Shown here: positions 27,913 to 57,191 of the stretch, in pieces
Layout of the letters: every line of letters begins with the position of its first letter
Numbering within the stretch: the first letter of the stretch is position 1
Assembly (NCBI RefSeq): GCF_014489635.1
Contig: NZ_CP060828.1
Span: 8,978,001 to 9,042,000, forward strand
Reading direction: 5' to 3'
DNA from: Streptomyces roseirectus
Lineage (GTDB): Bacteria; Actinomycetota; Actinomycetes; Streptomycetales; Streptomycetaceae
Length of the DNA stretch: 64,000 nucleotides
The notes under the pieces: generated by a model
Seen by the model: only the letters and a program-made list of their open reading frames with translations
Databases searched by the model: none
What the model was told of the DNA's origin: nothing
Translations under genes and position numbers: made by a program

Positions 27913-29139
27913 TTACGGGATCTCGCAGCGCAGCGAGGTGATGCCGTGCAGGAAGTTGCTGCGCAGATAGACCGGATCGCCGACCCGGATGCCGGGCACC
28001 CGGCGCAGCAGCTCACCGAACAGCGCCGTGAGCTGGATACGGGCGACCATGGCGCCGAAGCAGTGGTGGGGCCCTCCGCCGCCGAACCCCACATGCGGGT
28101 TGGGGGAGCGGCTGAGGTCGAACGCCGTCGCGTCGGCGAACACCCGCTCGTCCCGGTTGCCCGACAGATAGAACATGACCACCTTGTCCCCGGCCGGGAT
28201 CTTCGCGCCGCCCAGCTCGACGTCACGGGTGGCGGTCCTGCGGAACGTCAGCACGGGGGAGGCCCAGCGGACGAACTCCTCGACGGCCGTCCTGGCCCGG
28301 TTCCCGAAGTCCGCCGCCAGCCACTCGCGTTGGGCCGGGAACTCGGTGAGCGCCAGCATGGCGTGGCTGATGGTGTTGCGGGTGGTGTCGAAACCCGCGG
28401 TCACCACCAGGCTGAAGAACGCGCCGATCTCCGCGTCGGTCAGCCGCTCGCCGTCGATCTCGGCCTGCACCAGGCTCGTCATCAGGTCGTCCTCGGGACG
28501 GGCGCGGCGCGCCGCGGCCAGCTCCCGGCCGGTCCCGACGACGAAGTCGACCGCCTCCGCCACCACCGCCATCGGGTCGCGGCCCTGGGACACCGAGGGT
28601 TCGTGCACCGAGAGCGGCACGTCGGCGGCGGTGGCCAGGGCGTCGTGGAGTTCCTGGGGGACGCCCATCATCTCGGCGACGGTCCAGACCGGCAGTACGC
28701 GCGAGACCTCGGCGACGAAGTCGCAGTCCCCCGTCCGGATCAGGTCGTCCACGATGCGCCGGGCCTGGTTCTCGATCTGGCCCTGGACGAGGGCGAGCCG
28801 CCTGGGGGTGAAGGCGGCGAGCACCAGCCGGCGCAGCTGGGCGTGGCGCGGGTCGTCCATCGCGATGAACGACTGGTTGGCCCGCAGGATCTCCGGTGGG
28901 AAGTCGTCGAGCAGCATGCCCTGGCCGGAGCAGAAGGTGGCCGGGTCCCGGCTGACGGTGAGGATGTCCTCGTGCCGGACGACCGCCCAGAAGCCGTCCC
29001 CCACCCGGTCGGACAGGACGCCGGCCTCGGGCAGGACCGGGTGCCGGCGCACCGGCTGCCGCCGCAGTTCACGGAACGTCTCCTCCTGCCGGGCCGCGGT
29101 GCCGGCCCAGAACTCGCCGGTGAACGGTGTGTCGGTCAT
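27913..29139 (-). CDS. Cytochrome P450 (CYP125/142-like)
   Basis: A 408-residue P450 with the I-helix TAGFDTTRN, the ExxR helix VEEFVRWASPV, and the haem loop FGGGGPHHCFGAMVAR with the Cys ligand. The region TFRRTATRDVELGG resembles the P450 at 55888, though the two are not close copies. Its ATG at 29139 overlaps the stop of the terminal ketosynthase gene (ATGA), so it is translated together with the assembly line. A post-PKS hydroxylation or phenol coupling is likely. The substrate cannot be read. Confidence 0.85.
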   Translation of the reverse strand: MTDTPFTGEFWAGTAARQEETFRELRRQPVRRHPVLPEAGVLSDRVGDGFWAVVRHEDILTVSRDPATFCSGQGMLLDDFPPEILRANQSFIAMDDPRHAQLRRLVLAAFTPRRLALVQGQIENQARRIVDDLIRTGDCDFVAEVSRVLPVWTVAEMMGVPQELHDALATAADVPLSVHEPSVSQGRDPMAVVAEAVDFVVGTGRELAAARRARPEDDLMTSLVQAEIDGERLTDAEIGAFFSLVVTAGFDTTRNTISHAMLALTEFPAQREWLAADFGNRARTAVEEFVRWASPVLTFRRTATRDVELGGAKIPAGDKVVMFYLSGNRDERVFADATAFDLSRSPNPHVGFGGGGPHHCFGAMVARIQLTALFGELLRRVPGIRVGDPVYLRSNFLHGITSLRCEIP

Positions 29140-31247
29140 ACCGGCACCTCGTCTTCCCGCCCGAGCCAGAACGCCTGCCGTTCGAACGCGTAGGTGGGCA
29201 GCGAGACCGTCCGGGCGTCGAGACCAGCGAACGCCGCGCGCCAGTCCACCTCGACCCCGTGGGTGTGGGCCACGGCGAGCGCGTCGAGCACGCGGCCGTG
29301 CCGGTGGGCCGAAACGACGACGGTGTCGGTGTCGGCGTCGGTGTCGGCGAGCGCACCGACGACCGGGTCGGGGCCGAACTCCACGACGAGGCAGTCGCCC
29401 AGCCCGGCCGACTCCCGCAGCCAGCGTTCGGGGTCGAACGCGTCCGGTGGGATCGACCCGTCGTCGGCCATGCGGTGGCCGATCACGGCGGCCGGCCTGA
29501 CCCCGCAGGCGAGCCAGGACCGGGCGAGGTCCGCCATCCGCGTCACCTCGGCGTCCGGAAAGGCGAAGACGACCTTGCGCCGGGCCGCCCGCGCCCACAC
29601 CGCTCCGGGCCGGCCGTCGGCCAGCGCCGCCAGCCCGCGGCGCAGCTCCTCGGCCGTGTCGCCGAGCACGGCCGCCCGTACCGGGAACACCGTGCGGGTC
29701 GTCGCCAGCGACCACCCGACGTCCTTGGCGGTGTGCCGGTCCGTCAGATGCTCCAGCAGACGGCGGGCCTGGCGCCGCAGCGCCCGAGGCGTACGGGCCG
29801 ACAGCACCCAGGGCACCGGGTGGTCGGCTCCCGCGGGCGGCTCCTGCACCGGCGGGGCCTGCTCGAGGATCGTGTGGACGTTGGTGCCGCTCACCCCGAA
29901 CGCGGACACCCCGGCGCGACGGGGCCGCCCGGTCTCCGGCCAGGGCGCCGCCTCCGCGACCAGACGCACGGCGCCGTCGCCCCAGTCCACCTGGTCGGTC
30001 GGCCGGTCCGCGTACCGGGTCGGCGGCAGGGTGGCGTGCCGCAGCGCGAGGACGGTCTTCATCAGCCCGGCCATACCGGCCGCGACCTGCGGATGGCCGA
30101 TGTTGGCCTTCACGGACCCGAGCCACAGCGGCCGTTCACGCCGCGCGCCGTAGGCGGCGACGAGCGCCCCCGCCTCGATGGTGTCGCCGAGCGGTGTGCC
30201 GGTGCCGTGCCCCTCGACGAGGTCGACCTGCGCGGGCGACAGCCTCGCGTCGGCCAGCGCCTTGCGGATCATGCGGCGCTGCGACGAGCCGTTCGGCGAG
30301 GTCAGGCCGTTGCTGGCGCCGTCGTGGTTGACCGCGCTGCCCCGCACCACGGCCAGCACCTCATGTCCGTGGCGCAGCGCGTCGGACAGCCGCTCCACGA
30401 CGAACACCCCGACCCCGTCGGCCCAGCCCGCCCCGTCGGCCACGGCGGAGAAGGACTTGCAGCGGCCGTCCGGGGCCATCGCGCCGTGCCGGCTGTACTC
30501 GAGGAAGATCGCCGCGTCGGCCATCACGGTCGCCGCGCCGACCAGCGCCAGCGAGCAGTCCCGCTGCCACAACGACTGCCGGGCCATGTGCAGCGCGACC
30601 GGCCCGGAGGCACAGGCCGCGTCGAGAGCGAGGCTCGGTCCCTCAAGGCCGAGGGTGTACGAGACACGGCCGGCGGCGACGCTGGTGATCGCCCCGGTCA
30701 TCCGGTGGTCGGCGCCGCCGTCGGGAAACGCCTCGGCGGCGCTGCCGTACGGCTGGTGGGCCACCCCGAGGAAGACACCGGTGTCGGTGCCCCGCAGCGA
30801 CGTCGGATCGATGCGGGCGTTCTCCACCGCCTCCCAGCAGGTTTCCAGCAGCAACCGCTGCTGCGGGTCGATCATCTCCGCCTCGGCCGGCCCGATGCCG
30901 AAGAACTCGGCGTCGAACAGGTCGGCGTCGGGCAGGAAACCACCGGCCCGCACATAGGTACGTCCCTCGACGCCGGGCGTCGGGTCGTGCAGGCCGTCGA
31001 TGTCCCAGCCGCGATTGCGCGGGAACTCCGTGAGCGCGTCCCCCCTTTCCATGATCAGTCGCCACAGCTCGTCCGGGGTGGACACCCCGCCGGGCCAGCG
31101 GCAGCCCATACCGATGATCGCCACCGGCTCGCGTGCCTCCGACTCCAGCTCGCGCATCCTCGCGGTGGCGGCCTGAAGGTCGCCGGTCACCCGCTTCAGA
31201 TACGCCCGGAGCCGGTCCTCCGTGCTTGCCGCGCTTGTGCTCTCCAT
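29136..31247 (-). CDS. Orphan terminal ketosynthase with collapsed AT and no ACP
   Basis: A 703-residue protein. Residues 8-38 form a docking helix (DRLRAYLKRVTGDLQAATAR), and 40-465 a full ketosynthase with Cys212 (LDAACASG instead of DTACSSS), His347 (EGHGTGT) and Lys380/His385 (VKANIGH). Residues about 466-703 are a deleted acyltransferase: VVFAFPDAEVTRMA replaces the usual start, GHRMADDG replaces GHSxGE so the serine is lost, and the post-AT linker SLPTYAFERQAFWLG ends the protein. There is no ACP or thioesterase. It can receive a chain from the preceding ACP but cannot load an extender. It probably condenses the chain on itself and releases it; see findings. Confidence 0.85.
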   Translation of the reverse strand: MESTSAASTEDRLRAYLKRVTGDLQAATARMRELESEAREPVAIIGMGCRWPGGVSTPDELWRLIMERGDALTEFPRNRGWDIDGLHDPTPGVEGRTYVRAGGFLPDADLFDAEFFGIGPAEAEMIDPQQRLLLETCWEAVENARIDPTSLRGTDTGVFLGVAHQPYGSAAEAFPDGGADHRMTGAITSVAAGRVSYTLGLEGPSLALDAACASGPVALHMARQSLWQRDCSLALVGAATVMADAAIFLEYSRHGAMAPDGRCKSFSAVADGAGWADGVGVFVVERLSDALRHGHEVLAVVRGSAVNHDGASNGLTSPNGSSQRRMIRKALADARLSPAQVDLVEGHGTGTPLGDTIEAGALVAAYGARRERPLWLGSVKANIGHPQVAAGMAGLMKTVLALRHATLPPTRYADRPTDQVDWGDGAVRLVAEAAPWPETGRPRRAGVSAFGVSGTNVHTILEQAPPVQEPPAGADHPVPWVLSARTPRALRRQARRLLEHLTDRHTAKDVGWSLATTRTVFPVRAAVLGDTAEELRRGLAALADGRPGAVWARAARRKVVFAFPDAEVTRMADLARSWLACGVRPAAVIGHRMADDGSIPPDAFDPERWLRESAGLGDCLVVEFGPDPVVGALADTDADTDTVVVSAHRHGRVLDALAVAHTHGVEVDWRAAFAGLDARTVSLPTYAFERQAFWLGREDEVPV

Positions 31248-31262
31248 GGGCTTACCTCCCGG

Positions 31263-34200
31263 TCACAGTTCCGCGTCGAAGCCGTCGATGAGGGTGAACA
31301 GCTCCTCGTCGGTGGCCGCCTGCACGTCGGCCCGGTCCACCGCCGTCGGGGCGGCCAGGGCGGACGCGAGCGTGCGCAGACGGTCGACCACGCCGGGCCG
31401 TTCGGCGTCGTCGAGCTCCGCCAACAGGGCGTCGAGCCGGTCCAGTTCGGCGTACACCGAGTCGGCCGGCCGGTGCGGTGGCGGGGCGAGTTCCGCGTGC
31501 AGGTACTCGGCGAGGGCGACGACGTTCGGCTGGTCGAAAACCACGCTGACGGGCAGCGTCAGGCCGGTGGCCGCGTTCAGCCGGTTGCGCAGCTCGACCG
31601 CGAGCAGTGAGTCGAGCCCCAGCTCCCGGAAGGCCCGCGCGGGGTCGACCTCGACCGTCGAGGTGTGTCCGAGCACGGCGGCGATCCTCGTCTGGACCAG
31701 CTCGATCAACGCCTGCCGCGCGTCGGCGTCGCTGAGCCCGGCCAGCAGTTCCTTCCCGTCCTCGCCCGGGGTGACCCGCGCGCGGATCAGCCCCGTCAGC
31801 AGCGCGGGTACGCGCTCGGGCGTGGCGGTCCGGTCGACCGCCAGCAGGACGGCCTCGGGGCCGGCGCTCCCCAGCAGCTCGGCCTTGCGTTCCGTGCTCA
31901 GCGGGACCGTGCCGGACCGGCCGTCGTCCCCGAAGATCACCACCCGCGCGGGCAGGCCGTCCGCCGCCCGGTGTCCCGCGAGCGCCGTGAGGAAGGCCGC
32001 GCCGCTCGCCGTCGCGGCCTCCCCGATGCCCGGCAGCAGCGCGGAGAGCGGGCAGGCGAGCAGGAACAGCGCCGGTTCGAGGCCGAGGGTCAGTTCGTGC
32101 AGGCGCCAGGCGGGCTCGATCGCCGCGCGAACGGCCTCGCCGAACCCCTCGGCGGTGAGAGCGCTGAGGACCCCGTCGGACACCCGCCCCATCGTGTACA
32201 CGACGCCGGTCAACGGCCGGGACAGCCCCGCGACGGTCTCCGCCAGCCGCTCGACGTCGGTCACCTCGGTGAGGTGCCGCGCGCCGCGCGCCCGCACATG
32301 GTCAAGGAGCGCCGGCTCCGGCGTGCCGACCACGAGGACGGTGCCGGCCGGGTCGAGCACCGTGTCGTCGGCGGTGCCCGGGGCCACCGGTTCGAGGCGG
32401 GGCACCAGCACCTTCCCGTCGCGGACGGTCACCTCCGGCTCGCCGCAGGCGATCGCCGCTCGCGCCGCCTCGGCGACGTCGTCGCCGTCCACCCCGTCCA
32501 GCAGCACGATCCGGTCCGGATTCTCCTCCTGCGCCGCGCGTACCAGGCCCCGCACGGCGGCGGACGCCGGGTCGGTGCCACCGGTGGTGGCCACGACGAG
32601 GCGGGCGCCGTCCCGTGGCCGGCCGGTGAGCCATTCCTGTACGCCGGCGAGGACCCGGCCGGCCATGGCGCAGGCGCGGTCGACCGGCTCGCCCGGTTCG
32701 GTGCGGGCCGTCAGCACGGTGACGTCGTCCGGCCCCGGGGCGCCGCGACGAGCCGGTACCCACCGGAGCGCGAAGGCCGATTCGAGCACCGGGGCGGCGG
32801 CGGTGAGCACCGGAGAGTCGAGCCAGTAGTGCTCGCGCTGGAAGGCGTAGGTCGGGACGGGCACCGCGCTCGCCCCCGGCAGCGTGCCGCCCCAGTCGAC
32901 GGCGACACCGCTCACGTACAGTTCCGCGGCCGAGGTGAGCAGCCGCCTCATGGACCCGTCGTCGCGGCGGAGCGTCCCGGTCATGGTCACGTCGTGGGCG
33001 GCCGCCGTCACCGGGGTCAGCACCGGGTGGGTCGAGACCTCGACGAGGACCCGGTGGCCGGACGCGACCAGGCGGTCCGCCGCCTCGGCGAAACGGACCG
33101 GCTCGCGCAGGTTGCGGTACCAGTACTTCTCCGTCAGCTCCGGCCCGTGGAGCCATTCGCCGGTCACCGTGGACAGCATCGGCACCTCGGCGTCCTGGGC
33201 CGCCACCTCGCCCAGCTCGACCATGAGCCGGTCCCGTATCTCCTCGATCTGCGGTGAGTGGGAGGCGTAGCGGACGGGCAACACCGTGGCCTGGACGTCG
33301 CGTTCCTTGTAGTGGGCCACGACGCCCTCCACCGCGTCCGTCGGCCCGGCGATCGTCACCACCGCCGGCCCGTTGACCGCCGCCACCGTCACCCCGGGCG
33401 GCAGCGACGCCTCGACCTCCTCGGCCGGCAGGCGGACCGACGCCATCGACGCGCTCCCGGCCAGCGTGCTCAGGACCCGGCTGCGTACGGCGACGATCCG
33501 CGCCGCGTCCGCCAGCGTCAGAGCCCCGGCCACGCACGCCGCCGCGATCTCCCCCTGGGAGTGCCCCACCACAGCCGTCGGTGTGACGCCGAGAGCGCGC
33601 CACACCTGCGTCAGCGACACCATCATCGCGAACAGCGCGGGCTGCACCACGTCGTCCCGGTCCAGCGACGGCGCCCCTTCGGCGCCCCTGACCACGTCCA
33701 GGACCGACCAGCCGCACCAGGGCGCCAGCGCCTCGTCGCAGCGGGACATCCACTCGGCGAACACCTCGGACGTCGCCAGCAACTCCCGGCCCATACCCGC
33801 CCACTGGCCGCCCTGGCCGGGATACACGAACACGACGCCCGCCCCGGCCGGACCTGCCTTGCCCCGCACCACGTTCGGCGACTCGTCGAACCAGGCCGTC
33901 GGCGGCTCGGCCGTACCGATCACCACCGCGCGGTGTTCGAACGCCGTGCGGGACATCAGTGAGTAGGCGACGTCGCTGGGCCGTAGTTCATGATGCTCGG
34001 TCAGGAAGTCCGTGAGTTTCGATGCCTGTGCGCGTAGTGCCTCGGGTGTTTTCGCGGACAGCAGCCAGGGCACGACGGCCGGTTCGGCGCCCTCCCTGTC
34101 GTGCTGTGGTGAGGGTGGTGGTTCTTCGATGATGACGTGGGCGTTGGTGCCGCTGACTCCGAACGAGGACACTCCGGCCCGGCGTGGTCGTCCGGTCGTC

Positions 34201-35489
34201 GGCCAGGGGATGTTCTCGGTGAGCAGTTCCACCGAGCCTTGTGACCAGTCCACGTGGGGGGATGGTTCGTCGATGTGCAGTGTGCGGGGGAGGACCTGGT
34301 GGGTGAATGCCATCAGCATCTTGACCACTCCGGCGACTCCGGCCGCCGCTTGGGTGTGCCCGATGTTCGACTTCACGGACCCCAGACGCAATGGCGTCGA
34401 ACGGCCCTGCCCGTAGGTGGCCAGCAGTGCTTGGGCCTCGATCGGATCGCCCAGGGTCGTCCCCGTGCCGTGGGCCTCCACTACGTCGATCTCGTCCGGC
34501 TTGAGTCCGGCGTCGGCCAACGCCTCCCAGATCACCCGCTGTTGGGCGGGGCCACTCGGTGCGGTCAGTCCGTTGGAGGCGCCGTCCTGGTTGATCGCCG
34601 TTCCCCGGACCACCCCGAGGATCCTGCGGCCGGCCCGGACCGCGTCCGACAACCGCTCCACCAGCAGCACACCGACGCCCTCGGCCCAGCCGACACCGTC
34701 CGCGCCCGCGCCGAACGCCTTGCACCGGCCGTCGGGGGACAGACCGCGCTGGCGGCTGAACTCGACGAACGTCATCGGTGTCGACATCACCGCCGCACCG
34801 CCGACCAGGGCCATGTCGCACTCGCCGGACCGCAGGGAGCGCACGGCCAGGTGCAGCGCCACCAGGGAGGAGGAGCAGGCCGTGTCCACGGTCAGCGCCG
34901 GGCCCTCAAGACCCAGCAGGTAGGCCACCCGCCCCGATGCCACGCTGCCCGCACCGCCCGCGGCGAGCAGACCCTCGACGTCCTCGGGGGTGGGCGAGAG
35001 ACGGGTGACGTGGTCCAGGTACATCAGCCCCGTGTAGGTGCCGGTGCGGCTGCCGCGCAGCGAGAGCGGGTCGATGCCCGCGGATTCGACCGCCTCCCAC
35101 GACACCTCAAGCAACAACCGCTGCTGCGGATCCATCCCCAACGCCTCACGCGGACCGACCCCGAAGAACCCCGCGTCGAAGAAACCCGCCTCATGCAGGA
35201 ACCCCCCTTCCCGCGCATACGACCGACCACGGCGATCCGGATCCTCGTCGAACAGACCGGCCAGATCCCAGCCACGGTCCACCGGGAACCCCGACACCAC
35301 GTCCCGGCCCTCCGACACCACCCCCCACAACCCCTCCGCGCTCTCCACCCCGCCCGGATAACGGCACCCCACCCCCACGATCGCCACCGGCTCGTGCCGG
35401 TCGGCTTCGGCCCTGGCGAGGCGTTGTCGGGTCTCGTGCAGATCGGCGGTGACCTTCTTCAAGTACTGCAAGGTTTTGTTGTCCGTCAT
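31263..35489 (-). CDS. Type I PKS, module 4: KS-AT(methylmalonyl)-inactive KR-ACP
   Basis: A 1408-residue protein from ATG 35489 (GGAGGAACAGTCCC upstream). Docking helix [20 protein letters not shown] about 32-460 with TACSSS, EAHGTG and KSNIGH; AT about 550-850 with GHSQGE and YASH, the methylmalonyl-CoA signature. A KR-like region about 930-1200 has [14 protein letters not shown] in place of the NADPH loop and no catalytic Tyr, so it should be dead. ACP Ser lies in [13 protein letters not shown]-terminal docking region follows (about 1320-1408). The module adds a propionate unit and leaves the beta-keto group. The next gene is the orphan KS, 15 bases on. Confidence 0.9.
35022..35396. repeat. 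Near-identical 375-bp copy shared by two KS domains (copy A)
   Basis: This stretch, encoding the first third of the module 4 KS, matches 47761-48135 in the module 1 KS at all but one base (offset 12,739). The flanking KS sequence is also similar but diverges more. Silent sites are identical, which points to recent gene conversion or duplication. Confidence 0.85.
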
Positions 35490-35515
35490 GGGACTGTTCC
35501 TCCGGCTCAAGCGGA

Positions 35516-38500
35516 TCAGGCTGAGGGGCTACCGAACTCCGCGTCGATGAACGCGAACACCTCCTGCTCGTCGGCGTCCGCGAGTCCGTCTCGCACGTCG
35601 CCGGTCGCGGTGCCGGCGTGCTCGCCCTGCCACCGGGCGAGCAGCGCCTGGAGGTGGGCGGTGACCCGGGTCCGCGCCGCCGCGCTCACATCGAGGGCGT
35701 CCAGCACCCGCCCCAGGTCCTCGATGCCGTCGAGCACCACCTCGGCGGGGGCGTCGGCGCTCGGTTCCAGTTCCGCGGCGACGAACTCGGCGATCCGCGC
35801 CACGCTCGGGTGGTCGAAGGCGAGCGTGGCCGGCAGCCGCAGGCCCGTCGCCGTGCCGAGCCGGTTGCGCAGCTCGACCGCCGTCAGCGAGTCCAGGCCG
35901 AGCTCGTTCAGCTCGCGCTCGTCGGAGTCGGGCAGTTCGTCGTAGCCGAGGACGAACGCCACGTGCCGACGGACCTCGGCGGCGATCATCCGGTGGCGCT
36001 CGGGCGGCGCCGCCGTCGCGAGCGACCGCCGCAGCGGGAGGGCGTCCGGGGGCTGCGCACCGGCCGTCCGGCGCGTCGGCGCGCCGACCAGTTCGCGCAG
36101 CACCGACGCGTCGAAGCCGCTCCTGCGGGCCGCGCCGGCGTCGAACCGCATCGGCGCCAGGACCGGCCGCCGACTCGACAACGCCTGGCCGAACAGCCGC
36201 AGCGCCGCGTCCGTGTCCAGCGTCAGCATGCCGGACCTGGCCATGCGGGCGAGGTCGCCCTCGGTCACATGGGCGGTGACGCCGGTCCGCTGCTCCCAGG
36301 TGCCCCAGGCCAACGACTGCGCGGGCAGGCCCAGGGCGGCCCGGTGCCGCGCCAGTGCGTCCAGGAACGCGTTGGCCGCCGCGTAGTTGGCCTGGCCCGG
36401 CGACCCGAACACCCCCGCGCTCGACGAGAACAGCACGAACAGGTCCGGCCGGTCCGCCAGCGTCAACTCGTGGAGCCACCAGGCCGCGTCGGCCTTCGGG
36501 CGCATCACCTCCCGCAGCCGCTCCGGGTTCAGCGACCCGATCACCCCGTCCGCCGACACCCCGGCCGCGTGCACCACGCCGCTCACCCGCCGGCCCAACC
36601 CGCCGATCACGGTGGCCAGTCGCTCCCGGTCGCCCACGTCGCAGGCCAGCACCCGCACCCTCGGTCCCAGCCCCAGGTCCGTCGCCCGACGGGCCAGCAC
36701 GGTGATGTGCGGGACGCCCCATTCGAGGAGCCGTCCGACGATCACGGAGCCGATGCCGCCCGTGCCTCCGGTCACCAGGACCGTGCCGTCCCCCGGGAGG
36801 TCCGGCGGGGTGGGTCCGGGATCCGGGGCCACCGTCCGCAGCCTCGGCGCGAACAGCCGGCCGGCCCGGACGGCGAGCTGAGGTTCGCCGGTGGCGAGCG
36901 CCGTGGCCAGGATCCCGGTGACGTCGCCGTCGGTGTCCACCAGGACGAAGCGGCCCGGCTGTTCGGTCTGGGCGGAGCGGACCAGGCCCCACACGGAAGC
37001 GGCCGCGACATCGGTGATCTCCTCACCCTCGACGCTCAGGGCGCCGCGCGTGACGATCACCAGCGGGGCGTCACCGGGGCCCGGGTCCTGGAGAGCGGCG
37101 AGGACGAGCTCGGTCGCGGTGCGCGCGGCGTCCACGACGGACGGCCCGGAGGGGACGGCGAGCACGGTGACACCGTCGGTGGACACGGCCGGGGCGGCGG
37201 ACACGGGGGCCCAGCCGACCTCGTACAACGCGCCGGGGACCGCGTCGGCCGGTGCGGGTGGCAGGGCGCGCAGGGTGAGCGCGTCGACGGACAGCAGGAC
37301 GGCGCCGGACTCGTCCCACACGGTGAGCGTGACCGTGTCGTCGGAGACCCGGGCCACCCGGACCCGGGCGCGGCCGGCCTCGCGGTGGGCGGCCGAGACC
37401 CCGTGCCAGGAGAAGGGGACCCGGCCGTCGGTCCCGGAATCGTCGAGCAGGGCGAGGGCGTGCTGGGCAGCGTCGACCATGGCCGGGTGGAGGCCACCAC
37501 CGGGCGCGGTGCCCGCGACCCCCGGCAGGGTGAGTTCGGCGAACACCTCGTCGCCACGGCGCCACGCGGCGGTCAGTCCACGAAACGCCGGGCCGTAGTC
37601 GAACCCCCGCTCGGCCAGCAGGTCGTAGAGGCCGCCGGTGTCGAGGGCGGCGGCGCCGGGCGGCGGCCAGACCGTGGCGGGCGCGGCTGTGGGGGCGACG
37701 TCGTGGAGCAGTCCGGTCGCGTGGCGTACCCAGTCGGCGTCCGGCGCTTCGGGACGGGCGTGCACCTCGATCGGCCGGCGGCCTGCCTCGTCGGGGGCGG
37801 TCACGACGATCCGCAGCTCGGCCGGGACCGTCAGGGGCGCCTCGACGGTCAGTTCCTCGACGGCCGGGCAGCCGACGGCCCTGCCCGCGGTGAGCGCGAG
37901 GTCCAGGACCGCCGCGCCCGGCACCACGACGCCGCCGAACACGACGTGGTCGTCGAGCCAGGCGGTGGCGGAGGTCAGCCTGCCGGTGAGGACCAGGCTT
38001 TCCGGCATGTCGATCGCGGCGGTGAGCAGCGCGTGCCCCACTGCGCTCTGCTCGGTCTGCTCGGTCCGCCGGCCGGGGGCCAGCCAGTACCTCCGGCGCT
38101 GGAACGGATACGGCGGCAGGTCGACCGTGCGGCCGCCGGGCGTGACGGCCGTCCAGTCCACCGGCCGGCCGTGGACGTACAGGTGCGCCAGTGCCGTCAG
38201 CAGCGTGCGCACCTCGGGCCGGCCGCGTCGTGCCACGGCCACGACCGGCACGTCGGCGGGGCCGGCCGGGTCGTCGTCGGTGGCGAGGCAGTCCGCCGCC
38301 GACGCCGCCAGCACCGTGTCGGGACCGAGTTCGAGGAAGGCGTCCACGCCCTCGGCCCGCAGGGTGCGTACGGCGTCGTGGAACCGGACCGCCGCGCGCA
38401 GTTGCCCGACCCAGTAGTCGGGTGTGCAGAGGTCCGCGGGGTCGGCGAGCGTGCCGGTCACCCCGGACACCAGGGGCAGCCTCGGCACCTGGTAGTCGAT

Positions 38501-41500: not shown

Positions 41501-43702
41501 CCGCAGTCGCCGGGTCCGCCGCCCCGACGCGGCGAAGGCGCCCGCGGCGGCCAGGACGGCCCGCTCGTCACCGGACAGGACCACGGACCGGGGACCGTTC
41601 ACGGCCGCCAGCGCGACCCGGTCGTCGAGGACGGCCAGCGCCTCGGCCTCGGTCGCCTCCACCGCCACCATCGCACCGGCCTCGGGCAGCGCCCCCATGG
41701 CCGACGCCCGTGCGGTGACCAGCCGCGCCGCGTCGGGCAGCGACAGCACCCCGGCCACGTGGGCGGCCGCGATCTCGCCGACGGAGTGCCCGGCCACCGC
41801 GTCGGGAGCCATGCCCCAGGACTCCAGCAGCCGCGCCATCGCCACCTGAAGCGCGAACACCGCGGGCTGCGCGTGCTCGGTACGGTCCAGGGCGCCCGGC
41901 GCCCCGGTGAGCATGCGCGCGTACGGATCGCCGTCCATGTGCGGGGCCAGCTCGGCGCACACCTCGCGCAGCGACGACGCGAACAGGGGGAAACGCGCGG
42001 CGAGTTCGCGGCCGGCACCGGGGCGCTGCGCGCCCTGCCCGGTGAACAGCCAGCAGGTGTCGCCGGGCACCGGCCGGCCCACGACGGCGGCGCCGTCGCG
42101 CAGGCCGCGGACCAGGTCGCCGGTCGAGGCGCCCAGCACCACCGCGCGATCCCGCAGCAGCGCCCGGTCGGTCACCAGCGCCCGGGCGACGGCGGCCGGT
42201 GAGACCGGGTCCCTTGAGGACACCCAGTCCGCCAGCGCGTCGGCCTGGCCACGCAGGGCCGCCTCGCCCTCGGCGGACAGGATCCACGGCAACACCCCCG
42301 GTACGGGGGCGGGTTCCGCCGTCGCGGCCGGCTCGGCCGGCTCGGGCGCGGCTTCCAGGATCACGTGCGCGTTGGTGCCACTGACCCCGAACGAGGACAC
42401 GCCCGCCCGGCGCGGCGCGCCGGTCACCGGCCACGGCACGTGCTCGGTCAGCAGCTCCACCGCGCCCGACGACCAGTCCACATGCGGCGACGGCTCGTCG
42501 GCGTGCAGGGTCCTGGGCAGTTCCCCGTGCTCCAGCGCCATGACCATCTTGATCACACCGGCCACCCCGGCGGCGGCCAGGGTGTGCCCGATGTTCGACT
42601 TCACGGAGCCGAGGTACAGCGGCGTCGAGCGGCCCTGCCCGTAGGCCGCCAGCAGTGCCTGCGCCTCGATGGGGTCGCCGAGGGCGGTGCCGGTGCCGTG
42701 CGCCTCCACCACGTCGACGTCCTGCGCGGTCAGGTCCGCGTCGGACAGCGCGTCCCTGATCATGCGCTGCTGCGCGGGCCCGCTCGGCGCGGTCAGGCCG
42801 TTGGACGCGCCGTCCTGGTTCAGCGCGGAGCCACGGATCACCGCCCACACCCGGTGGCCGGCCCGCATCGCGTCCGACAGCCGCTCCAGCACCAGCACGC
42901 CGACGCCCTCGCCGAAGCCGGTGCCGTCCGCGCCGGCCCCGAACGCCTTGCACCGGCCGTCGGGGGCGAGGCCCCGCTGGCGGCTGAACTCGACGAACGT
43001 CGTCGGCGACGACATCACCGTCGCGCCACCGGCCAGCGCCACATCGCACTCGCCGGACCGCAGCGAGCGCACCGCCAGGTGCAGCGCCACCAGCGAGGAG
43101 GAACACGCCGTGTCCACCGTCACCGCGGGGCCCTCGGTGCCGAGCACGTACGCGACCCTCCCGGAAGCCAGGCTGCCCGAGCTGCCCAGGCCCAGGAAGC
43201 CGTCGAGGGCGGCCGGGGCGTCGAACAGGGAGGTGCCGTGGTCATGGACCAGGCCGGTGAACACGCCTGCCCGCCGTCCGGCCAGCGTCGAGGGATTCAC
43301 GCCGGCCCGCTCGACCGCCTCCCAGGACACCTCGAGGAGCAGCCGGTGCTGCGGGTCCATGGCCAGCGCCTCGCGGTCGGAGACGCCGAAGAACCCGGCG
43401 TCGAACTCCGTCGCGGTGGACAGGAATCCGCCGCGTTCGGCGAAGGGCGGGCCGCCCGCCTCCGCGTCGGCGAGGCGTAACCGGTCCAGGTTCCAGCCCC
43501 GGTCGTCGGGGAAGCCGCCCAGGGTCTCGCCGCCCGTGGCGACGAGGCGCCACAGGTCTTCCGGCGAGCCGATGCCGCCGGGGAACCGGCAGCCGATGCC
43601 GACGATCGCGACGGGCTCGCGGATCTTGCGCAGCTCGTCCCTGGCCGAGCGCAGCTCTCCCGTCACCTGGTTGAGGAGGCGGCGGATCTGGTCGTGGCTC
43701 AT
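35516..43702 (-). CDS. Type I PKS, modules 2 and 3: KS-AT-ACP / KS-AT-DH-KR-ACP
   Basis: A 2728-residue protein from ATG 43702. Module 2: KS about 29-455 (TACSSS), AT with GHSVGE and HAFH (malonyl), then directly an ACP ([11 protein letters not shown]), so no reduction. Module 3: KS about 1000-1430, AT with GHSIGE and HAFH (malonyl), DH with [10 protein letters not shown] and MVDAAQHAL (His/Asp pair intact), KR with TGGTGGIGS and a complete Ser/Tyr pair ([14 protein letters not shown]) and a B-type Asp (VSADGV), ACP ([11 protein letters not shown]), then C-terminal docking helices. The protein makes a 3-keto group followed by a trans-type enoyl unit. Leu75 is TTA (43478-43480), a second bldA checkpoint. 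Confidence 0.92.
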
Positions 43703-43719
43703 CTGGTGCCCCCTACTGG

Positions 43720-46700
43720 TCACGAGATGCCGAACTCTCGGCTGAGCAGTTCGGCGACTTCCCTGTCGTCGAGCGCGTCGAGACCGTCCGACGCGGACGG
43801 CTGAGGGGCGAACAGGGCGGACCACAGGTGGTCGGCGAGCCGCGCGGGATCGCGGTGCTCGAACACGATGGTGGTCGGGAGGTTCAGTCCTGTCGCCCGG
43901 TTCAGACGGTTGCGCAGGTCCACCGCGCCCAGTGAGTCGAAGCCCTGGTCACGGAAGCTGCGCGCGTCGTCCACGGCGTCGGCGGACCGATGGCCGAGCG
44001 ACGCGGCGACACAGTCCCGGACCAGGGTCCCCACCGCCCGGCGCTGGGCCTTCTCCGGCGCGTCCGCCCACCGCGCCAGCGGATTCTCCGGTGGTCCGGC
44101 GGCTTCGGCCGTCGGCGAGAGGCCGGCGAGCAGCGGCGTGGGCCCGAGCGCGGACCAGTCCGCGTCGACCACCGCGATCCGGGTCTCCGCACGGTCGAGG
44201 GAGGCGGCGAGGGCCCGGATCGCGGGTCCGACGGGCAGCGGGACCAGACCGGCCCGGCGCAGCTCCCGCTCGGCACGCGGTGCGACGATGCCGTCGCCGG
44301 TCCACTGTCCCCACTCGATCGCGGTCGCCGGCAGACCGAGGGAGCGGCGGTACTCGGCGAACGCGCTGAGGAAGGCGTTGCCGGGCGCGTAGTTGGCCTG
44401 CCCCGGCAGTCCGCAGACCGCCGCGATCGAGGAGAACATCACGAAGGCCGACAGGTCGTGGTCCCGGGTGAGTTCGTGCAGATGGACCGCGCCCAGCGCC
44501 TTCGCCCTGAGCGCGCGGGCGATACGGTCGCGGGTCAGCCGGCCGAGCGTGGTGTCGTCCAGCTCCGCCGCCGTGTGGACGACGGCGTCGAGCCGGTGCC
44601 CGCGCAGCGCCGCCGCCAGGTCGTCGCGGTCGCCGATGTCGCAGGCGGCCACGGAGACCCTGGTGCCGGTGGCGGTCAGCTCCGCGACCAGGCCGGCCGC
44701 TCCTGGCGCCGCCTCACCGCGACGGCTCAGCAGCAGCAGGTGCTCCGCGCCCGTCGCGGCGAGCCACCGGGCCACATGGCCGCCCAGCGCACCGGTACCA
44801 CCGGTGATCGCGACGGTGCCCCGGGGACGCCAGGACCGCACCACCGGCGTCGCGGACAGCGGGGCGCGCCGCAGCCTTCTGGTGGTCACGGCACCGCCGC
44901 GCACGGCGAACTCGTTCTCCCCGGCCGGGTCGCTGATCGCGTCGACCAGGGCGAGGTGGTCGGCGGCGGTCGGAGCCGTCGGCATGTCGACGACGCCGCC
45001 CCACACCTCCGGGTGCTCGGCCGCCGCCACCCGTCCAAGTCCCCAGAGCAACGCCTGTGCGGGGGAGACCGTGTCGTCCACGGCACCGGCCGTGACACAC
45101 CACAGTTCGGTGCCGCCGAGGGCCTGTACCAGTTCGACGGTCGCGGCGAAGCCGGGCGGCGGCTGCTCGGAGTCGAGTCCGTCGCCGAGGGCCAGCAGGG
45201 ACAGCACCTTCCCCGCGCCGTCGGCGGGCAGGGCGCGGAAATCCGGCCGGCGTGGATCCACCTCCAGCACGGTCGCGGTGCCGCCACGACGGGAGACGGC
45301 GTCGGTGAGGCCGGTGAGCGGGCCGTGACCGGGCGGCACCAGCACCGTCCAGTGCCCGGTCCGGCCCGGCGTGCCGGTCGCCGGGACCCATGCGATCCGG
45401 TGCCGCCACGCGTCGACGGTGGACTCGGCCGCCCACTCGTCGCGCCACGCCCGCAGCCTCGGCGCGAGCAGTTCGAAGGCGTCCCGCTCGGGCCCGGACA
45501 GCCGGCCGCCCCGCTCCCGCACCAGTTCCCAGAACCGGCCGTCGTCGGCGGCCGGGGCGGGGTCGAGCCAGTAGTGCTCGCGCTGGAACGCGTAGGTCGG
45601 AACGGGCACCTTCACCGCGCCGGGCAAGGCAGCGGCCCAGTCGATGTCCACGCCGCCCACGTGCAGTTCCGCCGCCGCGGTGAGCAGACGCGCGAGCCCC
45701 GCGTCCCCCCGGCGCAGGGTGGCGACCGCCGTCACGTCGTGCGCGGCGACGATGGCTCCCGACAGCACGGGACGGGCGGACACCTCGAGAAAGAACCGGT
45801 GCCCGGACTCGGCCAGGGCGGTCACGGCCGGGGCGAACAGGACGGGCTCGCGCAGGTTGCGGTACCAGTACTGTTCGGTCAGCTCGCCGCCGGACACCCA
45901 GTCGCCCGTTACCGTGGACAGCATCGGCACGTCGGTGTCGCGTGCTCGCACCGGGCCCAGTTCCGCCAGCAGCCGGTCGCGGATCTCCTCGATCTGCGGG
46001 GAGTGCGAGGCGTAGTCGATGGGCACGGTCTTCGCCGGCACGCCGCGCTCCTCGCACCGCGCGAGCACCGTGTCGAGGTCGGAGAGGGTACCGGCCACGG
46101 TCACCATCGAGGGGCCGTTGACCGCCGCGACCGTCACCGTGGACGGCAGCACCTCGGCGGCCTCCTCGACGGACAGCCCGACCGAGGCCAGGGAGGACCG
46201 GCCCGCGAGGGTACGCAGGACCCGGCTGCGGACCGCGACGATCCGCGCGGCCTCGGACAGCGTCAGCGCCCCCGACGCGTAGGCGGCCGTGATCTCCCCC
46301 TGGGAGTGCCCCACCACCGCGGCCGGTGTGACGCCGAGACCGCGCCATACCTGCGTCAGCGACGCCATGACCGCGAAGAGCACCGGCTGCACCACGTCGT
46401 CCCGGTCCAGCGACGGGGCGCCGTCGGCGCGGCGGATCACATCGAGCAACGACCAGCCGCACCAGGGCGCCAGCGCCTCGTCGCAGCGGGACATCCACTC
46501 GGCGAACACCTCGGACGTCGCCAGCAGTTCCTCGCCCATGCCGATCCACTGGCTTCCCTGGCCGGGATAGACGAACACCACCCGGGGAGCCACCGGGGCG
46601 GCGACACCGCGCACCACGTCGGGCCCGTCGAGTCCGGCCGGTGGTTTCGCGCCGCCGATCACCACCGCGCGGTGCTCGAACGCCGTGCGGGACATCAGTG

Positions 46701-49700
46701 AGTAGGCGATGTCGCTGGGCCGTAGTTCCTCGTGTGCGGTCAGGAAGGCGGTGAGTTTCGATGCCTGTGCGTGCAGTGCTTCGGGTGTTTTCGCGGACAG
46801 CAGCCAGGGCACGACGGCCGGTTCGGCGCCCTCCCTGTCGTGCTGCGGTGAGGGTGGTGGTTCTTCGATGATGACGTGGGCGTTGGTGCCGCTGACTCCG
46901 AACGAGGACACTCCGGCCCGGCGTGGTCGTCCGGTCGTCGGCCAGGGGGTGTTCTCGGTGAGCAGTTCCACCGAGCCCTGTGACCAGTCCACGTGGGGGG
47001 ATGGTTCGTCGATGTGCAGTGTTCGGGGGAGGATGTTGTGGGTGAATGCCATCAGCATCTTGACCACTCCGGCGACGCCGGCCGCCGCCTGGGTGTGGCC
47101 GATGTTCGACTTCACGGACCCCAGACGGAGTGGTTGGGAGCGGCCTTGTCCGTAGGTGGCCAGCAACGCCTGGGCCTCGATGGGGTCGCCCAGGGTGGTG
47201 CCGGTGCCGTGGGCCTCCACCGCGTCGATCTCGTCCGGCTTGAGTCCGGCGTCGGACAGTGCCTCCCAGATCACCCGTTGTTGGGCGGGGCCGCTGGGTG
47301 CGGTCAGTCCGTTGGAGGCGCCGTCCTGGTTGATCGCTGTTCCCCGGATCACCCCGAGGATCCTGCGGCCGGCCTGGACCGCGTCCGACAACCGCTCCAG
47401 CACCAGTACGCCGACGCCCTCGCCGAAGGCGGTGCCGTCGGCGCCCGCCGCGAACGGTTTGCACCGGCCGTCGGGGGACAGGCCGCGCTGGCGGCTGAAC
47501 TCGACGAACGTCATCGGTGTCGACATCACCGTCGCGCCGCCGACCAGGGCCATGTCGCACTCGCCGGACCGCAGGGAGCGCACGGCCAGGTGCAGCGCCA
47601 CCAGGGAGGAGGAGCAGGCCGTGTCCACGGTCAGCGCCGGGCCCTCGAGACCGAGCGTGTACGCCACGCGGCCGGAGGCGACGCTGCCGGCCGAACCGGT
47701 CTCCAGCATCCCTTCGACCTCGTTCGTCGCCGGGCTCGGCAGGCGTCCGTAGTCGTTGCGCATCAGCCCCGTGTAGGTGCCGGTGCGGCTGCCGCGCAGC
47801 GAGAGCGGGTCGATGCCCGCGGATTCGACCGCCTCCCACGACACCTCAAGCAACAACCGCTGCTGCGGATCCATCCCCAACGCCTCACGCGGACCGACCC
47901 CGAAGAACCCCGCGTCGAAGAAACCCGCCTCATGCAGGAACCCCCCTTCCCGCGCATACGACCGACCACGGCGATCCGGATCCTCGTCGAACAGACCGGC
48001 CAGATCCCAGCCACGGTCCACCGGGAACCCCGACACCACGTCCCGGCCCTCCGACACCACCCCCCACAACCCCTCCGCGCTCTCCACCCCGCCCGGATAA
48101 CGACACCCCACCCCCACGATCGCCACCGGCTCGTGTGTCGATGCCGTCGGGCCTGACGGCACGGCGGGTCCGTCGCCGGCCAGCCGCCGGTCGAGGAAGG
48201 CCGCCAGCGCACCGGGTGTCGGATGGTCGAAGACCAGTGACGACGCCAGCGACAGGCCGGTCTCGGCGGCGAGCCGGTCGCGCAGTGCGACGGCGCCCAC
48301 CGAGGTCAGACCGGCCTCGCGCAGTGCCCGGTCGGGTCGGCACGGGTCGGCGAGTACCGCGGCGCACTGGGCGAGCACCATGTCCAGCACCAGGCTCGGG
48401 CGCTGTCCGGGCGGCGTGTCACGCAGCCGCGCCGCGAAGTCGCCCCGCCGCGGCGGTTCCACGGCCCAGTCGCCGGACCCGGCGACCAGGACCGGTTCCT
48501 CGTGGCCCAGCGCGAGATCGAAGGCGTCGGTGGTCCGGCGGTCCGACAGCCGGGCCGCCGGCAGGTTCAGGAAGAGGGCCGGCAGCCCGGACGCGCGCCG
48601 CTCCCGGGCCAGCGCGGCCGGCACATCACCGTCGGTGCCTTGCCCGATGAGCACGAAGTGCCGTACGGCGGCGGTGCGCGCGAACTCGTCCAGGGCGAAC
48701 ACCGTGTCGATGTCGTCCCCTGCATCCCCTTCGCCGAGGTGGACGACGGCGGACACCTCGGGCGCCTGGTCCAGGTCGGGTACGACCACCGCCCGCGCGC
48801 CGAGCCGCCGTATCTCCGTGGCCAGGCCGTGGTCCCCGGCCACCAGCACGAACTGACGGACCCGGTGTGCCTCGACCAGGTGCCGGGTCAACAACCGGCT
48901 CAGCGGGGTGTCCACGGCGGACAGCAGGACCACGGGCCCGAGTGCGGTTCCCGGCGTCGCCAGCACGGTGATGGCCCGCGGCGCCGACAGGGCGCCCTGG
49001 TGCACCACCAGCTCCGGCTCGCCCGCGCCGAGGGCTTCCGCCAGCGGCTCGGGGTCGCCGGGCTCGACCCCGAGTACCGTCACCTGGGGCGAGCCGGCCG
49101 ACCGGAGCGCCGCGCGCGCCGCGGCGGCGTCGACCCGGGACCCCCGTACCACCACCAGGAGCCGTGCCGCGTCCTGCCGCCACGCGCGCACATCGGCGGC
49201 GACGGAGCCGGCCAGCCGTCGCAGAGCGGCGGCCCGGCTCTCGCCGGTACGGGCACCGCCCTCGGCGACCAGCACCACGGCGTCGTGCGGCGTGCCGTCC
49301 GGTTCCCCGGCGCCGACGGTCCTGATCTCGCCCGGCACGGCGGCGGGCACCTCCGGCAGTGCCCGCAGGCCGATTCCGCGCAGTCCGCGGTGGGTCGCGG
49401 CGTTCACCGCCCACAGCCGGGCCGGTGCCGTGAGCAGCCGGTGGCGCATGATCTTGCCGGACGGCGTCCGGGGCACCGCCGCCACCTCGTACAGTTCCTC
49501 CGGCACCTTCGCCCCGGACAGCCGCTCCCTGCACCGCCCCAGCATGGCGTCGGGGTCCGGCCGGTCGGCGGCCGGCACGACGAACGCCACCGGCACCTCG
49601 CCGAGCGCGTCGTCGGGCCTGCCGACCACCGCGACGTCCGCGACGCCCGGCACCGTGCGCAGCACCGCCTCCGTCTCCGACGGGTGAATGTTCTCGCCGC

Positions 49701-50949
49701 CCCGGATGATCAGCTCCGAGATACGGCCGGTGACGCGCAGATAGCCGGCCTCGTCGCGGCGGGCCAGGTCGTCGGTGTGGTACCAGCCGTTCCGCATCGC
49801 CTGGGCGGTCTCCTCGGGCCGGCCGTGGTATCCGGCGAACAGGCTGGGGCCGCGCACCCACACCTCGCCCTCGGCCCCGACCTCGACGTCCGCACCGGTC
49901 CTGGGATCCACGACGCGCAGGTCGAGGCCCGGCACCGGCAGTCCGCACGAGCCGGGCACCGGGTCGCCGTCCGGCCAGTTCACGGCCATCAGACCGCAGG
50001 TCTCGGTGCTGCCGTAGCCGTCGAGCAGGCGCTGCCCGAAGGTCTCCTCGAACGCCGTCCGCAACTCGGCCGAACTCACCGACCCGGCGACGAGACACCG
50101 CCGCAGCCCCCAGTCCCGGGCCGGCATGTCCCGTGCGGCGGCCACCAGTTGGTGATAGGTGGCCGGCACCCCGGCGAGAAAGGTGTACGGCCGGGCCGTC
50201 AGCTCGTCGAGCACGTCGGCCGCCGTCAGTCCGTCCAGGACATGCGCGCTCGCGCCGACCGCGGTCACCCCGATCACGCAGAACACATGGGCGAGGCTGT
50301 GGAACAGCGGCGTCGGCCACAGCACCTCGTCGTCCGCCGACAGCCCGAGAATGGCCGCGTAGCACGCCGCCACCGACCACAGGCAGTTGCGCTGGGTGGA
50401 CAGCACGCCCTTGGGCCGGCCCGTCGTACCGGACGTGTACAGCATCCACGCCACGTCGTCGAGGCCGAGATCGTCCCTCGCGGGCGTCTCGGGATCGGTG
50501 GCGCACAGCGTCTCGAAGGACAGCAGACCCGCGTACGGCCGGTCCCCGGTGACGATCACCCGCAGGTGCCGGCGGCCGGCCAGCAGCGGGCGCACCTGGT
50601 CCACGTGTGCCGGATCCGTGATCAGCACCGTCGCCCCGGAGTCGTCGAGCAGGTAGGCCAGCTCCGCCCCGCCGCACAGCGGGTTGAGCGGCACGCCGAC
50701 GCCGGCGGCGCGCACGATCGCGAGATAGCTCTCGACGTTCTCCACCCGGTTGCCGAGCAGGATGGCCACCCGGTCGCCGGGCCGCACCCGCAGCCGGGTG
50801 AGATGCCCGGCGAGCACCCCGGTCCTGCGGTCCAGCTCCGCGTAGGTGACCGCGCGCCAGGCGTCCCTGAACGCGACCTTGCCGCCCTGCCGGGCCGCAT
50901 GCCCCGCGAGCAGCACCGGCAGTGGCTTGACCAGTTCGGTACGGAACAC
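43720..50949 (-). CDS. Type I PKS, loading module and module 1: CoL-KR0-ACP / KS-AT(methylmalonyl)-KR-ACP
   Basis: A 2409-residue protein from GTG 50949 (AAAGGA nine bases upstream). Residues 1-510 are an AMP-forming carboxylate ligase: [11 protein letters not shown] (171-181), [17 protein letters not shown] and Lys499 in TPSGK. A decayed KR-like stretch (about 550-830) follows, then an ACP with Ser883 (AGLTSVGAV). Module 1: KS about 940-1365 (TACSSS), AT with GHSQGE and YASH (methylmalonyl), KR with [12 protein letters not shown] (B-type), FSSIAAV and NYAPGNAF, and ACP (QGFDSLGAV). No DH, so the first hydroxyl is kept. The chorismatase next door indicates a 3-hydroxybenzoate starter. The downstream start is 17 bases away. 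Confidence 0.9.
47761..48135. repeat. Near-identical 375-bp copy shared by two KS domains (copy B)
   Basis: Partner of the copy at 35022-35396, with a single base difference (ACGACACC here, ACGGCACC there). Lower-level similarity continues from 48135 back to about 46694. The copies are in direct orientation, so recombination between them would delete 12.7 kb containing modules 2 and 3. Confidence 0.85.
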
Positions 50950-51147: not shown

Positions 51148-52146
51148 GTGACCGCATTCATGCACGATTCCTTGGAGATCGCTTTCCGAAAGTCCGGGGA
51201 CACACCGACAGAACGTCCGGGCAGACATGTACTCGCGGCGATCGGATACGGCGAAACGCCGGTCGCGCCCTTCGTCGCCGATCACGGCGGCATCGAGCTG
51301 GAGCTGCCCATGGTCGCCGCCGGCGACGGCTTCACCGAGTTCTGGACCACGAACAAGCAGGTCAAGGCCGGTCGGATGGGCGAGGTGTGGTACGCCCACG
51401 ACGGCGAGCACCTGCTGTGCGCCGGTCGCATACCGCCCGCGCCGCGCTACGCCGACCAGACGGAACACGCCTATCTCGGCGTCCTGCGCACGATTCGCGA
51501 ACTCGGCTATCCGCACCTGAACCGAATATGGAACTTCATCGGCCGGATCAACGAGGAAAACGCCGAGGGAATGGAGACGTACCGAGATTTCTGCCTGGGT
51601 AGAGCGCGGGCCTTCGAGCGTTCGGGAATACCGGACGAGAAACTGTGCGCGGCAACAGGAGTGGGGGCCACGAAGGACGGCGTGTCATTCTATTCGCTGA
51701 GCCGCAGGGAAAACGTCCACACCCATCTCGAAAATCCGCGGCAAGTAGCCGCCTACCGTTACCCGGCGCGCTACGGTCCGAAATCCCCCAGCTTCTCGCG
51801 GGCCACCCATGTGCGCGACGCCGGCCACCTGTACGTGTCGGGCACGGCGAGCATCATCGGGCACGAGACCGTGCACCACGGCCTGATCGAGCGGCAGTGC
51901 GAAACCGCGCTGGGCAATATCGCCCAGGTCATCGGCGACGCGAACACCGCACGGCACGGCCTGTCCCGCGGTTACCGGCTGACCGACCTGGACCTGATCA
52001 AGGTGTACGTACGGCACGAGGAACACGTGGAGCTCGTGCGCGAGCTGTGCGGCGCCGCGTTCTCTCCCGACGCCGAGATCGCGTTCTTCACCGTGGACAT
52101 CTGCCGGTCCGACCTGCTGGTGGAGATCGAGGGTATTGTCCGATGA
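51148..52146 (+). CDS. Chorismatase, probably 3-hydroxybenzoate-forming (Hyg5/FkbO family)
   Basis: A 332-residue protein (GTG 51148; ATG 51160 is equally plausible, as AAGGG lies 11 bases before it). It matches the chorismatase family along its length: ELPMVAAGDGFTEFW, HLNRIWNFIGRINEE, DAGHLYVSGTASIIGH, YVRHEEH and the C-terminal VDICRSDLLVEIEGI with the conserved glutamates (326, 328). The family splits chorismate into pyruvate plus either a dihydroxycyclohexadiene acid (FkbO) or 3-hydroxybenzoate (Hyg5). Cys319 in VDIC is, as I recall, typical of the Hyg5 branch. The aryl-CoA-ligase-like loading domain divergently encoded next door supports the 3-hydroxybenzoate product. Its stop overlaps the DAHP synthase start. 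Confidence 0.85.
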   Translation: MTAFMHDSLEIAFRKSGDTPTERPGRHVLAAIGYGETPVAPFVADHGGIELELPMVAAGDGFTEFWTTNKQVKAGRMGEVWYAHDGEHLLCAGRIPPAPRYADQTEHAYLGVLRTIRELGYPHLNRIWNFIGRINEENAEGMETYRDFCLGRARAFERSGIPDEKLCAATGVGATKDGVSFYSLSRRENVHTHLENPRQVAAYRYPARYGPKSPSFSRATHVRDAGHLYVSGTASIIGHETVHHGLIERQCETALGNIAQVIGDANTARHGLSRGYRLTDLDLIKVYVRHEEHVELVRELCGAAFSPDAEIAFFTVDICRSDLLVEIEGIVR

Positions 52147-57174: not shown

Positions 57175-57191
57175 CGCGGGGCTCCCAGTCG

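Follow-up and report, generated by a model that had tools for sequence, protein, structure and literature searches.

How does a modular polyketide synthase (PKS) release its chain when no thioesterase is recognised beside it, and what would it then make? The question is raised by a gene cluster of Streptomyces roseirectus that lies in a window of 64,000 nucleotides, positions 8,978,001–9,042,000 of a single-contig genome of 9.95 Mb (NZ_CP060828.1; all further coordinates are those of the window). Four consecutive minus-strand genes, PKS1 to PKS4, carry their catalytic motifs in the expected order, and this is therefore no chance pattern. They form a tetramodular cis-acyltransferase line that is primed by 3-hydroxybenzoate (3-HBA) and ends in a ketosynthase (KS) resembling that of CalA3, from the calcimycin pathway. 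The cluster is real, its product, possibly a phenol of flavonoid-like build, is as yet unproven, and the terminal KS is probably the enzyme that releases the chain.

A whole-genome family search places five KS domains and five acyl carrier protein domains (ACP; PF00550) in the window, with no discrete ACP, and no match to the thioesterase family PF00975 (the nearest is about 33 kb to the left; other thioesterase families were not searched for). With five KSs, five ACPs and no PF00975 thioesterase, the line therefore amounts to a loading module and four modules for extension, with one KS left over. PKS1 (43720–50949, minus strand, delimited by Pfam matches, motifs and choice of start codon) contains a ligase-type loading domain, a degenerate region resembling a ketoreductase (KR), an ACP, and module 1 with a KS, a methylmalonyl-type acyltransferase (AT), an active B-type KR and an ACP. 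By Pfam matches and motifs, PKS2 (35516–43702, minus strand) holds module 2 (KS, malonyl-type AT and ACP) and module 3, in which a dehydratase (DH) and a KR stand between the malonyl-type AT and the ACP. PKS3 (31263–35489, minus strand) begins with a docking domain and carries module 4, with a methylmalonyl-type AT and a KR that is dead for want of its Lys, Ser and Tyr. PKS4 (29136–31247, minus strand), the proposed release enzyme, retains a docking domain, a KS that is intact in Pfam match and catalytic residues, and a truncated AT without its catalytic Ser; it has neither an ACP nor a thioesterase. An earlier reading of this DNA from its letters alone (the sequence-only reading) had placed these genes and domains and noted the missing thioesterase, and both points are borne out by the present searches. 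It had also described a final orphan KS: the extra terminal KS is indeed there, but it is not bare, being accompanied by the docking domain and the internally deleted AT.

What primes the line? Separated from PKS1 by a gap of 198 bases, a divergent plus-strand gene (51148–52146) encodes a chorismatase of the FkbO/Hyg5 family, which scores 410 bits against TIGR04444 (cut-off 325). Aligned to Hyg5 (PDB entries 5ag3 and 5a3k) and FkbO (4bps), it shows Gly240, Cys327 and Glu334 as in Hyg5, whereas FkbO has Ala at positions 240 and 327 (5a3k has Ser at 327). The equivalent Gly and Cys are part of the signature of the 3-HBA-forming CH-Hyg5/CH-II subfamily in a paper on Nat-hyg5 (PMC7170507; here and below, statements from the literature refer to the available portions of the cited papers). 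On the other side of the gap, matches to PF00501, PF13193 and PF00550 on PKS1 identify a ligase loading domain and an ACP. The approximately 340 residues between them (48400–49434) are degenerate and match the KR profile weakly and in pieces; venemycin synthase likewise has one inactive KR (PMC6941969). The Hyg5-type enzyme would thus make 3-HBA, to judge from its residues, and the ligase-type domain of PKS1 would load it. That 3-HBA is the starter, as the sequence-only reading had proposed, is now backed by these residues and is very probable.

Such a pairing has been described before. A related chorismatase gene sits in a PKS cluster whose first protein starts with a carboxylic acid ligase, and chorismatase-made 3-HBA is the starting precursor of BC325 and of the cuevaenes as well (PMC7170507). 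BC325 is a rapamycin analogue (PMC7170507) and the cuevaenes are triene acids (PMC3999817), whereas the present line has four modules and an ACP-less terminal KS. The chorismatase is a divergent one: among the other matches listed from two samples that overlap, one of 392 and one of 391 genomes, none exceeds 51% identity to it. We also compared the surroundings of the chorismatase matches of 21 of 29 other genomes over about 20 kb on each side, so that genes further out would escape; one flank is missing in G233 and G359, G295 has a short flank and one of two matches in G360 is covered. In seven of the 21 neighbourhoods, a ligase with 51–64% identity to the loading domain lies no more than about 20 kb from the chorismatase.

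The chain that would follow can be read from the modules. The AT motifs are GHSQGE/YASH in modules 1 and 4, GHSVGE/HAFH in module 2 and GHSIGE/HAFH in module 3, which we take to mean methylmalonyl, malonyl, malonyl and methylmalonyl in the order of the modules. Module 1 has a KR but no DH; this KR is intact, with its Lys, Ser and Tyr, and its LDD motif with Pro144 and Gly152 is presumably B2-like. Reductive domains are absent from module 2; in module 3 the KR keeps Lys, Ser and Tyr and is accompanied by a DH with the HxxxGxxxxP motif, and in module 4 the three KR residues are all lost. These motifs agree with the extender order and reductions of the sequence-only reading, and the four modules would extend 3-HBA to Ar-CH(OH)-CH(Me)-CO-CH2-CH=CH-CO-CH(Me)-CO-S, a structure that we regard as likely on the strength of the domain content. 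Modules 1 and 4 each have a KS followed by a methylmalonyl-type AT, and these two KSs share 92% identity, pointing to recent internal duplication or gene conversion.

The chain would then pass from the ACP of module 4 to PKS4. This protein of 703 residues consists of the docking domain, the KS, the KS–AT linker and an AT remnant, from which about 200 core residues are deleted and in which GHS has become GHR, so that the catalytic Ser is an Arg. The KS, on the other hand, keeps its Cys, both His and the Lys. KS and AT remnant have the same third-position GC content (GC3), 0.93, and the stop codon of PKS4 overlaps the start of the cytochrome P450 gene behind it; because GC3 is kept through the remnant and the two genes overlap, PKS4 is probably expressed and under selection. 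The closest precedent that we found is CalA3. This terminal module likewise has a dead AT and lacks an ACP; its KS was shown in vitro to release the chain without a thioesterase, by amide formation or by hydrolysis, and it joins the calcimycin chain to 3-hydroxyanthranilate (PMC10006239). PKS4 resembles it in being an ACP-less terminal module with an inactive AT, in a window without a PF00975 thioesterase, and in its intact Cys-His-His and Lys residues (matched by motif). By analogy, PKS4 probably serves as a release enzyme as CalA3 does; we propose that its Cys-His-His site would act with a non-canonical nucleophile, and we consider release by this KS to be reasonably likely.

Which nucleophile would be used? 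The most likely single candidate is C6 of the chain itself. Its attack on C1, a Claisen closure like that of chalcone synthase, would give a 2,4-dihydroxy-3-methylphenyl ketone, and the KS of TAS1 is cited as a case of cyclizing release in the CalA3 paper (PMC10006239). The oxidation level implied by the domain order is right for a resorcinol without any oxidation, an arithmetic already proposed by the sequence-only reading and found to hold. This property is shared by two aromatic closures: the chalcone-like one from C6 to C1, and a stilbene-like one from C2 to C7 in which CO2 is lost. The last 78 residues of PKS3, behind its ACP, match no Pfam domain, and no separate cyclase is recognised among the Pfam matches of the scanned genes (all but four gene models, at 897–1343, 3552–4229, 13493–14323 and 63305–64000). 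It is thus by analogy that closure has to be attributed to the terminal KS. The same lack of a cyclase counts against the stilbene-like alternative, in which C2 attacks the C7 ketone and C1 is lost as CO2, to leave a 2-methylphenol whose 3-substituent is CH(Me)-CH(OH)-aryl (expected mass 258.1256). It would be aromatic without oxidation from the same chain, yet it would also need a Z alkene in the ring, and we think it very unlikely. The C6-to-C1 closure is the weakest step of our explanation, and we put the explanation that includes it forward tentatively, as the favoured reading but with less than even confidence.

Several observations weigh against this assignment and the closure that goes with it, and the first concern the KS of PKS4. 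Its active-site Cys lies in the context ACASG, compared with ACSSS in the other four KSs of the window, and it is only 55–59% identical to these, which are 70–92% identical to each other. This divergence, together with the deletion of the AT core, could mean that PKS4 is the decaying remains of a fifth module that has been lost, with release being spontaneous or due to a thioesterase encoded elsewhere (PF00975 matches do occur elsewhere in the genome). The intact catalytic residues and docking domain, the undiminished GC3 of the AT remnant and the overlap with the downstream gene speak for a working protein, and such decay has very little probability in our view. Moreover, we know of no sequence signature that separates a cyclizing KS from a hydrolysing one.

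The analogy with CalA3 is also incomplete. PKS4 ends after the AT remnant, without the inactive DH and KR of CalA3, which the authors of that work think are structurally needed, and the reaction of CalA3 forms a C–N bond, while PKS4 is only a KS with a truncated AT (PMC10006239). The resemblance in terminal architecture could also speak for an intermolecular release, in which the KS of PKS4 joins the chain to an amine or an alcohol as CalA3 does with 3-hydroxyanthranilate. A glutamine-synthetase-like gene is found in the vicinity together with aromatic genes (54904–64000); however, no gene for an amino-aryl partner is recognised among the scanned genes, and the nearby genes look catabolic. This alternative seems to us improbable.

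The alkene adds a further objection, as both aromatic closures place C4=C5 in the ring and need it to be Z, whereas the KR of module 3 looks E-directing. As a rule, the type of a KR is linked to the geometry of the alkene. The module-3 KR carries neither marker, with Phe141 instead of the A-type Trp141 and SAD instead of LDD. We aligned 60 KR-like domains: three from the window, the others from the remaining PKS loci of the same genome and from the surroundings of other chorismatases. This is a convenience set, and some of its domains are partial or dead. Twelve have Trp141 without the DD of the LDD motif, 26 have the DD, one has both and 21, including the module-3 KR, have neither; Phe141 is also found in five of the 26 DD-bearing KRs. 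Support for a Z alkene was sought in an A-type relationship without success: Trp141 is present in none of the eight nearest neighbours in a small KR tree, in which the module-3 KR sits on a long branch within a clade holding degenerate KRs. Because of the missing markers, the long branch and the nature of the set, the typing is weak: E is the better guess rather than Z, although not a firm one. It weakens the resorcinol closure, but enolization of the doubly activated system could isomerize C4=C5.

Module 1 is the other source of difficulty. Without a DH, it leaves a benzylic alcohol and no enone, so that the cinnamoyl-type double bond of a flavonoid precursor is absent, and the alcohol would be ready for lactonization or oxa-Michael addition. 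Both outcomes are compatible with an E alkene. The terminal KS, or water, might simply hydrolyse the chain, as the KS of CalA3 also does with its substrate (PMC10006239); the α-methyl β-keto acid would lose CO2, and addition of the free C9 hydroxyl to C5 would give a 2-aryl-3-methyl-tetrahydropyran-4-one with an ethyl ketone side chain, a ring whose formation is independent of the alkene geometry to which the module-3 KR points. This route would leave the aryl ring as the only phenol substrate for the PF00891-type O-methyltransferases of the cluster, and it gives no explanation for the retention of a dedicated PKS4 if water suffices; we judge it unlikely. Alternatively, the C9 hydroxyl could attack C1. 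The distance from the aryl carbinol at C9 to the acyl C1 fits a ten-membered lactone, in which an E alkene is allowed, and phenyl-substituted ten-membered macrolides, the saccharothriolides, are on record. For this macrolactone there is again no PF00975 thioesterase in the window, and the literature available to us yielded no saccharothriolide cluster for comparison; we hold it to be quite improbable.

It is the E-directing look of the KR and the benzylic alcohol from module 1 that keep the resorcinol closure tentative and make the flavanone ring less probable still. The sequence-only reading had gone on from the resorcinol to a flavanone methylated at C3 and C8, with each reductive domain being exactly what this needs. 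Its oxidation level does fit, but the flavanone is one of several possible closures. The simplest way to it would involve a DH in module 1; as there is none, dehydration or displacement would have to happen separately. The ring also calls for a Z alkene where the KR of module 3 points to E. We therefore consider the formation of the flavanone ring to be unlikely. As a final structure, moreover, it omits the aryl hydroxylase, the two P450s, the oxidase of the berberine-bridge-enzyme (BBE) type and the three methyltransferases of the cluster. The actinoflavosides, suggested at the same time as possible relatives, do not hold up. They have a 5-hydroxymethyl-7,8-dihydroxy aglycone without a methyl group at C3 or C8, and their C2 bears a plain phenyl (A–C) or an alkyl group (D) (PMC9503743), so that the skeleton differs from the one predicted here, as do methylation and starter. 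They also carry an aminosugar, and no glycosyltransferase family is found among the Pfam matches of the scanned genes.

How does the favoured reading, a terminal KS closing C6 onto C1, compare with known makers of aromatic rings? Chalcone and stilbene synthases are type III PKSs, a different class of enzyme from this type I line, and the proposed closure is the same chemistry as that of chalcone synthase. A type III PKS of the genome itself was considered as the ring maker and rejected, as the two PF02797 matches lie at 7.95 and 9.44 Mb, outside the window. Venemycin synthase (VemG/VemH) is also a short line, with a hydroxybenzoate starter (3-HBA is accepted too), an inactive KR and an aromatic product, but it has three modules, uses malonyl units only and cyclizes by means of a thioesterase domain (PMC6941969). 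Stigmatellin synthase is likewise a modular PKS ending in an aromatic ring, a chromone with a C3 methyl, and it has no thioesterase as its release domain; its StiJ protein probably has a cyclization domain in the last module (PMC9317276), whereas here no Pfam domain follows the ACP of PKS3. The fungal naringenin synthase FnsA, in which a domain activating aryl acids is fused to a type I PKS, makes a flavanone from hydroxybenzoate, but it is described as a single nonribosomal peptide synthetase–PKS with a thioesterase, taking four malonates and no methylmalonate (PMC9606254). A search of the open-licence literature for a bacterial modular flavanone synthase yielded nothing on the subject among the papers listed. 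A bacterial modular type I PKS with a chalcone-synthase-like finish is a possibility that we entertain with considerable doubt. In it, an ACP-less terminal KS would close C6 to C1 and so lead to a flavonoid or dihydrochalcone skeleton, 5-deoxy and C-methylated, independently of the type III PKSs of plants and bacteria.

Relatives of PKS4 were sought in other genomes. No other match was obtained at an E-value of 1e-205 in 392 genomes of the genus, with just two candidates being scored in each, and no match to the AT remnant at 1e-20 in 391 genomes of the order, with nine being scored in each; a diverged relative could escape either search. No orthologous cluster emerged from the genomes sampled. 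A scan of genome contigs gave 19 PKS loci at 32–42% identity, which is uninformative for orthology.

The genes around the PKS would supply the precursor and complete the product. On the plus strand, the chorismatase stop codon overlaps the start of a gene for a class II DAHP synthase (52143–53300; PF01474), which would feed the shikimate pathway, and this is followed by a flavin adenine dinucleotide (FAD)-dependent aromatic hydroxylase (53306–54859) related to 3-(3-hydroxyphenyl)propionate hydroxylase (NF004829; 608 bits, cut-off 390). Downstream of PKS4, and in the same direction, come the P450 gene whose start overlaps its stop in the sequence ATGA (27913–29139), a second P450 gene (26710–27894; PF00067 for both), a LuxR-type regulator (24431–26368; PF00196), an O-methyltransferase of the PF00891 type (23313–24320), a methyltransferase dependent on S-adenosylmethionine (SAM; 22614–23273), another PF00891-type O-methyltransferase (21562–22617) and an FAD oxidase with a BBE-like C-terminus (19961–21532; PF01565 and PF08031). 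The FAD hydroxylase probably hydroxylates the 3-hydroxyphenyl ring, to judge by its family, and the P450s, the oxidase and the methyltransferases would oxidize and methylate the product. In the cuevaenes, the 3-HBA-derived ring appears from the nuclear magnetic resonance (NMR) table to bear a second oxygen para to the first (PMC3999817), for which reason the aryl ring may be hydroxylated here too.

Only part of this set recurs beside other chorismatases. Relatives of the FAD hydroxylase (50–53% identity) are found in four of the 21 neighbourhoods (G233, G272, G359 and G592), and the same four also contain a LuxR regulator (40–42%) and a P450 (36–38%). A P450 alone is not telling, because P450s at 32–40% identity occur in three more neighbourhoods (G162, G439 and G464). 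Within about 20 kb of the chorismatase, none of the 21 neighbourhoods contains a relative of the three methyltransferases or of the FAD oxidase at an E-value of 1e-25. The oxidase is uninformative because its family is large, with matches at 1e-60 in 139 of the 391 genomes, our own included (best other match 57%).

Other genes flank the cluster. On its right (54904–63312) lie genes for an F420-type luciferase-like oxidoreductase, a P450, the type III glutamine-synthetase-like protein, an HcaD-like ferredoxin reductase, an MppR-like protein of the ADC family, an HpaE-like aldehyde dehydrogenase and an HpaD-like extradiol (LigB) dioxygenase. The model matches are mostly below the curated cut-offs; the group looks like an aromatic ring-cleavage set beside a pathway predicted to make a hydroxylated aryl ring. 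The left flank (11420–18126) encodes a sugar-type ABC transporter solute-binding protein with its permease and a radical SAM protein; a GHMP kinase, a NUDIX protein and an NAD-dependent epimerase are encoded on the other strand. Between these and the cluster, a plus-strand open reading frame of 548 residues (18345–19991) shows coding bias and no Pfam family, and its 3′ end overlaps that of the FAD oxidase gene, which lies on the opposite strand.

What would the answer mean? The closure question can be tested directly, since the candidates would differ in mass or in NMR pattern: 284.105 is expected for the flavanone (C17H16O4), 302.115 for the acyl resorcinol or the macrolactone (C17H18O5), 258.126 for the stilbene-like product (C16H18O3) and 276.136 for the decarboxylated ethyl ketone (C16H20O4). 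A line of four modules is also short enough to be rebuilt in vitro, as was done for venemycin (PMC6941969). If PKS4 only hydrolyses or lactonizes its substrate, it would extend to an aryl-primed four-module line the idea behind CalA3, that of a worn-out extension module serving as a release enzyme. If the terminal KS does close the ring, a separate ketosynthase would be making an aromatic ring in the very step that releases a modular polyketide. Engineering would gain a small, tractable part, and bacteria would have an independent way of reaching a flavonoid-like skeleton.

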